DNA of 64,000 nucleotides from Rusavskia elegans (taxonomy: Eukaryota > Ascomycota > Lecanoromycetes > Teloschistales > Teloschistaceae). Shown in pieces: positions 27,382 through 28,787 of the stretch. The number at the start of each line of letters is the position of its first letter. The first letter of the stretch is position 1. The notes beneath the pieces are model-generated. The model made no database searches, was not told where the DNA came from, and worked only from the letters and a program-made list of their open reading frames with translations. The translations under genes were made by a program, and so were the position numbers. The stretch lies in contig SAUG01000053.1 of assembly GCA_011316305.1 (NCBI GenBank), positions 592,828 through 656,827 on the forward strand, written 5' to 3'.

Positions 27382-28787
27382 TCACACCTTTCCGGATTCC
27401 CTTGGAGTAGCTTTACCACTCTCTGCGTCTGGTCCCTTTTGATATCGTAACTCTGACCCGCTCGGTTCGCCCTCCACATGATCATCCTGTTGATCTAGCA
27501 GAGTTCCTGCTCTCCCGCCTGCCATAGTGCTCACCTGCGGCTGCTCGCCTCGAAGCTTCGGCGGTGGAGGCTGCTCAAATTCTGGCCCGGGCGAGTTCAC
27601 GTCCGGTAGGCCACTGCCTTGCCTGCTGTTCGCTTCCTCCACGAACGCAGACCCATCTGGAGCGAGATTGACGATCGGTCTGTTAGTACCTGTCGATGGA
27701 TCGAAGAATTCATGCTCCCTTTCGTCGAAGTCCTGGCCAGGGTTCGCCGTCTCATATTCGAGCATCTTGATGAATTTGTAGAGGCCCGACGCAAGCAGAG
27801 CACCAAGGACAGGGCCAAGCCAGTATATCTTTGTGCCTTGTTAGCGAACGGTCTCTATGGAGCGAAGGGACCGACCCAGTGATAGTTGTAGAAAGAATGC
27901 AGGACAACGCAGGGTCCGAAAGAACGAGCGGGATTTAAAGAACCGCCCGTGTAGTAGACGCCTAGCTGGAGATCAGTAACACGATGCGCGTGGATTGCTT
28001 GATTCTTCCGCTCACCAGCCAATTCGGCGACGAACAGCGATAGCCCGATACCGACAGGCGCAATGAAGGTTCCTTTGTGTTTCTCCGCAGCGAGCATAAA
28101 GATAGTGAAAACAAGCTGCGCGGTGAGAAACATCTCGATGAACAGACCTTGGGCGATCGTCGTGGTTGGTGACAGCGAGGTGCGGACATTGAGCGGTCCG
28201 GGGAACAAGACACTAACGATGGCGGCACTGATGATGCCACCAAGTATTTGGGATAGTGTGAGAAGGGCACCGCGAAGCCATGGAAGAGCACCGACGAGAC
28301 ACATTCCAAGAGAGACCTGGCGGTATCAGGTCGGTGGATCGGGTCCATTCAAGAAGAACTTACTGTAATCACAGTAAGTGTCAACATCCATTTCGCTGGA
28401 GACTTTGTAGATGATCAAACCTGCAGGATTGAACAGACCGCCGCTGACGCGAAAGAAGACCCATGCATTCGCAGCCAAGGAAAAACCAAAGCACAAGGCG
28501 ATATACAATAGAGAAGCTGGATCAGGGGCAGAGGCTATAGGGGCGTCTGGTTCCTTGGTGTTGGCAACCTGCGTGCCGGCAAAAGCAAAGAACAAGAAGA
28601 GAAAGGTGCCGGCAAATTCACCCAACATAGCGACGAAATGATTTCGGAAAGAGTCTGGCAGAAACCCCATGAAGGGCAAGCGATTGGAGACAGTTGAAGG
28701 CGGTCGAAAGTGCCCTTGAGATACTGCATGATTCTTCTTGGATCTTAGACTGGGGATCATGGATCCCTGGGACTCATTGGTGTTCAT
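27382..28787 (-). CDS. Aquaporin (MIP family)
   Basis: Exons 28787-28421, 28315-28016, 27961-27876 and 27828-27382, coding 399 aa. Six transmembrane helices are visible. The first NPA motif (GLFNPA-VSLGM) spans the first intron and the second (GGSLNPARSFGP) lies in exon 3. The Ser after NPAR, where aquaglyceroporins have Asp, argues for a water-selective or orthodox-type channel. The N terminus is about 50 residues and the C-terminal tail is about 150 hydrophilic, Pro/Glu-rich residues, likely cytosolic. Introns 2 and 3 are ordinary (54 and 47 bp). Intron 1 cannot be removed in frame by a single canonical splicing event and fits a stwintron, listed separately. Likely role is plasma-membrane water transport in osmotic adjustment. 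Confidence 0.92.
28316..28420 (-). other. Putative stwintron (nested twin intron) in aquaporin gene
   Basis: On the minus strand an external intron begins GTTTGA at 28420 and runs to GATTACA ending at 28364. A complete internal intron, GTAAGT to GCCAG (28363-28317, 47 nt, branch-like CTGAT), interrupts it between the A and the G of its acceptor, and the final G is 28316. Removing the internal intron joins GATTACA to G and creates a normal CAG acceptor. The external intron is then 58 nt with a CTTAC branch-like site. Only this two-step excision gives NPA followed by VSLGMCLVGA, the expected aquaporin helix. A single canonical intron would shift the frame. Confidence 0.72.

Follow-up and report, generated by a model that had tools for sequence, protein, structure and literature searches.

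How the first intervening sequence of a lichen aquaporin gene is removed is the question raised by this locus. The window (the whole stretch of DNA analysed, 64,000 nucleotides from Rusavskia elegans contig SAUG01000053.1) carries the gene on its minus strand, and the first intervening sequence is placed directly after the first NPA motif, with 105 bases between NPA and VSLG. We present the case that these 105 bases very probably form a spliceosomal twin intron (stwintron), removable in either order.

Results

The aquaporin gene model

The gene model extends over 28787-27382 on the minus strand, and taking out three intervening sequences gives a translation of 399 aa with both NPA motifs present (GGLFNPA and SLNPARSFGP). 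The PF00230 (MIP) family cut-off was passed by two stretches at the locus in a profile search; on these sequence features the gene is classed as a fungal aquaporin, with a MIP domain holding two NPA motifs. Across the first intervening sequence the joined model reads GGLFNPA-VSLGMCLVGA, which bears out the initial annotation, where a nested model had been drawn to give NPA followed by VSLGMCLVGA. Coordinates are collected in Table 1.

Table 1. Features of the aquaporin locus, in window positions
Feature	Position	Strand	Description	Basis
Exon 1	28422..28787	-	Start codon to GCA of NPA ([D1,2] naming)	Translation and aquaporin homology
Flanking G	28421	-	G1 of external donor in [D1,2]; first base of Val codon in [A2,3]	Splice enumeration and gene model
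Intron I	28363..28420	-	58 nt, GTTTGA...TTACAG; internal in [D1,2], external in [A2,3], there completed by G28316	
Candidate branch sites, intron I	28374..28385	-	GTTGAC 28385-28380 (A 28381); ACTTAC 28379-28374 (A 28375)	
Perfect 9-bp hairpin	28358..28379	-	ACTTACTGT-GATT-ACAGTAAGT; as RNA ACUUACUGU-GAUU-ACAGUAAGU	Predicted fold
Shared G	28363	-	Within CAGTAAGT; final base of intron I and initial base of intron II	
Intron II	28317..28363	-	47 nt, GTAAGT...CCGCCAG; external in [D1,2], internal in [A2,3]	
Candidate branch site, intron II	28325..28330	-	CCTGAT (A 28326)	Motif match
Exon 2	28016..28316	-	Starts at GTC of VSLG; first G, 28316, permits [A2,3] route	Gene model
Intron 2	27962..28015	-	54 nt, ordinary GT-AG	Gene model
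Exon 3	27876..27961	-	Second NPA motif, SLNPARSFGP	Gene model
Intron 3	27829..27875	-	47 nt, GTCGGT...AAAG	Gene model
Exon 4	27382..27828	-	Through stop codon	Gene model

Some features of the remaining gene are recorded here in their own right. The length of intron 2 is a multiple of three, the intron is stop-free, and it is read through before GVYYTGG in four public models (P0001, P0043, P0066 and P0240). The donor of intron 3 is unusual, and the join there varies among relatives' models (P0011, P0016 and P0061). Adjoining the aquaporin gene, at 29645-31981 of the plus strand, is a long open frame with a RING-like cysteine pattern at its end (CVVCLEEY...CGHEFHAEC).

Two introns sharing one nucleotide

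Between 28465 and 28302, possible splice patterns with one intron, with a micro-exon or with nested introns were listed; among canonical borders the exact NPAVSLG sequence was obtained from nested models only. The initial annotation's nested pair, an external intron of 58 nt formed by 28420-28364 (57 nt) plus G28316 (GTTTGA...TTACAG) and an internal one of 47 nt at 28363-28317, was recovered with the same coordinates and lengths. Its statement that no single canonical intron joins the exons in frame holds for the exact NPA-VSLG join and fails as worded, for three single introns keep the frame, none of them giving NPAVSLG: an 87-nt intron from a donor at 28403 (GLIIYK inserted), a 69-nt intron from a donor at 28385 (GLIIYKVSSEMD inserted), and a 108-nt intron from a GC donor at 28424 (A of NPA lost). 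Six two-intron models are in frame, but all of them alter the sequence at NPA and depend on an intron as short as 22, 25 or 39 nt; these include the micro-exon alternative already described, with its 25-nt intron and 11 additional residues. NPAVSLG is also obtained, whichever order is taken, from a second nested pair through an AAG at 28359 (62 + 43 nt, donor GTTCTT), a less likely pair than introns I and II because its donor and acceptor are weaker.

The overlapping introns I and II have G28421 directly before them and G28316 directly after them. Since these GT-AG introns overlap by one G, they cannot be removed independently of one another. The interval begins with GG, and with I out G28421 is brought to TAAGT to form GTAAGT; with II out, TTACA is brought to G28316 to form a CAG acceptor. 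Both the [D1,2] and the [A2,3] arrangements are thus present and the stwintron type is ambiguous; removal of I then II and of II then I gave an identical mRNA when computed by script. By sequence geometry, one U2 intron splits a conserved element of another, and that element would work only once the inner intron is out, as the definition of a stwintron asks. The earlier picture of an internal intron splitting the acceptor is therefore a valid reading of the locus, to which must be added its mirror image, with 28420-28363 as the internal intron and the same mRNA as product.

Both constituent introns (58 and 47 nt) are at least 42 nt long, the length used as a search rule in PMC9024468. Compared with the motifs GURWGY/DYURAY/HAG given in PMC7138796, both acceptors, the donor of II and the branch site GTTGAC of I match; the donor of I, GTTTGA, has two mismatches to GURWGY, and CCTGAT, the branch site of II, leaves the first letter of DYURAY unmatched.

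The chance expectation for the overlap was assessed by shuffling the 104-nt stretch 20,000 times by dinucleotides with its ends fixed, and by requiring both introns to be at least 42 nt long. An overlap of the form HAGTRWGY arose in 54 shuffles, or 15 if YTNAY branch-like motifs were also demanded, and the stricter YAGTAAGT arose once and never together with branch motifs. Looser overlaps were frequent (any AGT in 4,582 of the 20,000; with branch motifs in 1,565). As a natural control, the window holds 441 104-mers that start with GT and end with AG; HAGTRWGY occurs in 6, and the single one that also has both branch motifs is the aquaporin stretch itself.

Conservation in relatives' proteins

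Relatives were compared as proteins, in which codons are compatible with the needed bases and are not proof of them. A read-through search, with exon 1 continued into the intron as query, gave 117 matches, all of which were inspected: the best 13 read NPA-G, 98 read NPA-V, one reads NPA-Y, 4 end there and one is without the motif, a ranking biased towards NPA-G matches as the query itself carried NPA-G. By a stricter rule, 95 of the 98 NPA-V matches continue into the intron and 3 run intact into exon 2 (12 intact by a coarse rule); the next residue is S, G, R, C or N in 88 of the 95, as GTNNGY or GTAAAY donors predict, compared with about 33% expected from sense codons. The five nearest matches (P0121-P0125) all have 19 residues from NPAG to YSK, as CAGTAAGT would translate. 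The AGTAAG overlap is kept, as YSK, in 5 of the 13 NPA-G matches and is invisible in the other 8 (P0126-P0133), for which a plain phase-1 intron is possible. In four of the five nearest fragments the sequence breaks off after PPT, as expected if translation stopped at the ACC TGA of the branch motif of II; P0123 (Xanthoria calcicola, annotated Aquaporin-1, 156 aa) ends in PSA, inside the intervening sequence, and is apparently a truncated model. The Flavoplaca models P0066 and P0240 are joined at the borders of II and read through I as 19 codons, that is, 57 nt.

Two listings (the best 120 of 4,241 matches and the best 120 of 1,195) were united into 170 distinct proteins, from which 22 named orthologous models were picked by name and similarity; their genera, Kuettlingeria included, belong to Teloschistaceae. 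Among the matches listed, none of the 22 has an intact NPA-V.LG join: 7 run from NPA into a different join and 15 lack the motif. Four of the latter begin in or after exon 2 (P0238, P0242, P0243, P0248) and two inside the intervening sequence (P0239, P0241), and the absence of NPA is less telling in these 6 because they begin downstream of it. The Teloschistaceae paralogues P0031, which is intact, and P0028, which is not, were set apart from the 22. The 146 other listed proteins comprise 111 intact by a strict pattern, 7 more intact by eye, 27 without the motif, and P0286 with an insertion. The last (from a distant fungus, Hyphodiscus hymeniophilus; NPA-VSQ-VTLGM, three additional residues at the junction) may have a mis-modelled intron edge.

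In a quick tree of the sequence after NPA (51 rows, with 26 of the 146 others and no bootstrap), the window and the 22 models fell on one side of a branch with SH-aLRT 97, Flavoplaca and Calogaya being nearest to the window; such neighbours point to a Teloschistaceae origin of the window. In the weaker exon-1 tree, P0134-P0137 (all NPA-V) and a long row were placed among the Teloschistaceae rows. As far as the 117 matches and the 170 listed proteins show, the putative stwintron is seen in Teloschistaceae-like sequences only. That a stwintron lies at the NPA codon of an aquaporin, as originally put forward, is well supported by the sequence together with the relatives' proteins.

Age and origin of the two introns

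L008, a paralogue from this genome, carries an ordinary phase-0 intron of 51 nt at the equivalent codon (GCT|GTAAGT), with the junctions TTCAACCCGGCT|GTAAGT...CTTAG|GTGACC. The Kuettlingeria paralogue model P0028 has NPA-VRPSVLHHTQDYADSLQ-VSVGM, and reads as if such a 51-nt phase-0 intron had been retained. Because of the plain intron of L008 and of the read-through pattern (NPA-G in near relatives vs NPA-V in distant ones), II would be the older of the two; it is probably the old phase-0 host intron of the family, and we infer that I was gained in the Teloschistaceae lineage. In the more distant matches a donor seems to come directly after NPA, and in the close group an extra G seems to come before the donor, so that I appears to have been inserted between the G and T of the old donor. 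The initial annotation had II as the internal intron, which is right as [A2,3] geometry; L008 and the read-through fragments point to it as the older one, external in evolutionary terms. Another paralogue (L009, 1000-2400 of G000:C101) seemed by eye to lack its front part and to have AT-rich sequence upstream.

No second copy of the stwintron was found in its own genome with a 121-nt query (E<=1, very common words skipped), which matched itself alone; the arrangement is accordingly not of the repeated (sister) stwintron or introner kind by this search. An in-frame query for related DNA found no relative in genome contigs or viral contigs. Similarity between I and II was equalled in 219 of 500 shuffles, giving no sign that I was copied from II; the corresponding figures were 86 of 500 for II and the L008 intron, 217 of 500 for I and the L008 intron, and 210 of 500 for I and the reverse complement of II. 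An insertion of I would fit a host intron of 51 nt. It is also possible that I was carved out of a longer host intron, the process called 'stwintronisation' in PMC7138796.

Other explanations of the interval

It could be that II is always out first and I is the sole external intron, a strict [A2,3] arrangement. The geometry is compatible with this and GTAAGT is closer to the donor consensus than GTTTGA; however, splicing by the mirror [D1,2] route is just as feasible, the plain intron of L008 is in the phase of II and not of I, and two pathways were demonstrated for a Helminthosporium solani stwintron (PMC5639578), so that we regard a strict order as unlikely. A single non-canonical intron of 105 nt, either GT...GG (28420-28316) or GG...AG (28421-28317), would produce NPAVSLG in one step but is very unlikely, as it leaves unexplained the CAGTAAGT overlap with its branch motifs, the conservation of that overlap at the protein level, and the Flavoplaca models joined at the borders of II.

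The cryptic donors at 28403 and 28385 keep the frame as single GT-AG introns, with 6 or 12 residues inserted past NPA, and the closest fragment, P0121, has Val at both places. Both donors are nevertheless lost in four of the five nearest fragments (P0122-P0125), which have Y or D for the Val (GT) codon of 28403 and L for that of 28385, while all five retain YSK and the Gly that follows NPA; nor do clean models from other lichens have such an insertion, and we consider this use of the donors extremely improbable. An assembly error would be scarcely more credible: although GTTTGA...CAG would become a plain phase-0 intron of 104 nt if one surplus G were taken out, Gly is read after NPA in 13 separate matches, including the named Xanthoria calcicola record, and the gene model is otherwise open across 399 codons, which also speaks against a frameshifted pseudogene. 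Least of all would we expect the read-through product NPAGLIIYK...PPT* to be the true protein, which is what the Xanthoria calcicola record amounts to; there is an open frame of 153 aa, and P0123 is annotated as a 156-aa Aquaporin-1, yet most of the channel would be missing and exons 2-4 are conserved in orthologues.

Possible splicing routes and a predicted hairpin over the shared site

The preferred reading, a stwintron spliced in either order, calls for two consecutive splicing reactions, which we infer from the geometry and the conservation at the protein level. The spliceosome would remove one intron first, and either order would rebuild the site required by the other: if I left first, G28421 and TAAGT would make the GTAAGT donor ([D1,2] route), and if II left first, TTACA and G28316 would make the CAG acceptor ([A2,3] route). 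Both routes are expected to be in use, with one mRNA from both; the II-first route may perhaps be slightly the commoner, because it is II that has the consensus donor and not I (GTTTGA). Incomplete or wrong splicing was computed to bring an early stop in all four forms. Removal of I alone leaves the frame NPAVSSS and then a stop, removal of II alone a stop 53 codons past NPA, and removal of the whole 104 nt in one step a stop at 34 codons; the unspliced form reads NPAGLIIYK...PPT and stops, with an open frame of 153 aa. One-step removal has been reported as mis-splicing of [D1,2] stwintrons (PMC12403724).

The predicted hairpin (Table 1) spans the shared acceptor/donor site and pairs the donor of II, GUAAGU, with ACUUAC, a branch-like sequence of I; this pairing may slow both first steps. 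ACUUAC, in the 5' arm, is likewise the donor-pairing stretch of U1 RNA. The hairpin alone is predicted at -9.3 kcal/mol, with stem pair probabilities of 0.86-1.0 within the 105-nt RNA. When the stretch was shuffled 5,000 times, 6 of the shuffles held a perfect stem of 9 or more with a loop of 3-8. The window has 14 such stem entries, several of them overlapping, so that stems of this kind are no great rarity, and the whole 105-nt RNA did not fold better than its shuffles (z -0.69, with 43 of 200 shuffles folding as well). The pairing of branch element and donor may be incidental, since consensus branch elements and donors are already partly complementary. In the hairpin region the five nearest matches have, at the protein level, D to V in four and T to A in two, and these changes could be placed in the loop and the outermost pair, where they would leave a G.U pair.

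A further reading, which we think quite unlikely, is that the stwintron has been kept across much of Teloschistaceae as a splicing gate on the water channel, with the hairpin concealing I's acceptor together with II's donor. As all four incompletely or wrongly spliced forms stop early past the pore motif, channel supply could be set by the opening of the hairpin; if this were true, aquaporin supply in a drying or rewetting lichen could depend on that opening.

Discussion

Stwintrons are a known but uncommon arrangement, and the one proposed here seems to disturb automatic gene models: its practical cost is that 0 of the 22 picked Teloschistaceae models carry an intact NPA-VSLG and that the Xanthoria calcicola record is shortened at the join. 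It adds an aquaporin stwintron with a putative ancestral state (plain phase-0 intron) and a putative derived state (twin intron) in one family, and, as both would be found in a single gene family, the gain of an intron inside a donor can be tested there. Depending on which half was lost, the remaining intron would be in phase 0 or phase 1, one nucleotide away from its alternative; Fekete et al. in 2017 are said to have seen the loss of a stwintron half as a route for one-nucleotide intron shifts.

In the literature searched, no report was found of a stwintron in an aquaporin, and none on aquaporin introns in Teloschistaceae, and two papers there mention stwintrons together with lichens; the arrangement is a stwintron of known type, in a gene and a lineage without report in that literature. 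Almost all described stwintrons are of the [D1,2] type according to PMC12403724, and a [D1,2] stwintron doubles as [A2,3] where the next exon begins with G (Flipphi et al. 2017, PMC5639578; also PMC9024468). The closest counterparts described in these two sources are Pezizomycotina stwintrons, in the Helminthosporium solani alternative oxidase gene and in a putative multidrug efflux pump gene, which likewise consist of U2 introns sharing a terminal G (AGT), begin with GG, have a G after the last acceptor, and can be spliced in two mutually exclusive orders to the same mRNA. The present case differs from them in its gene (aquaporin), its lineage (Teloschistaceae) and the off-consensus donor of I, and is predicted from sequence.

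The lipS [D1,2] and bioDA [D2,3] stwintrons (PMC5639578) are alike in having a standard intron at the corresponding position in relatives and an internal intron that was added in the donor. The lipS stwintron is found in three classes, whereas that of the aquaporin is seen only in Teloschistaceae-like sequences among the 117 matches and the 170 listed proteins. The Hypoxylaceae [D1,2] stwintrons, as described in PMC9024468, also have short constituent introns, and the uniquely occurring ones are mostly at positions common to family orthologues, as here. That source counts 117 stwintrons in a Hypoxylon genome, 36 of them sequence-similar, as against one stretch examined here and no second copy. 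It also reports self-masking of splice sites in Hypoxylon stwintrons; the consensus sister stwintron has a nine-base stem formed by the internal branch element and the external donor GUAAGU, to which the perfect 9-bp stem predicted for the aquaporin stwintron is similar.
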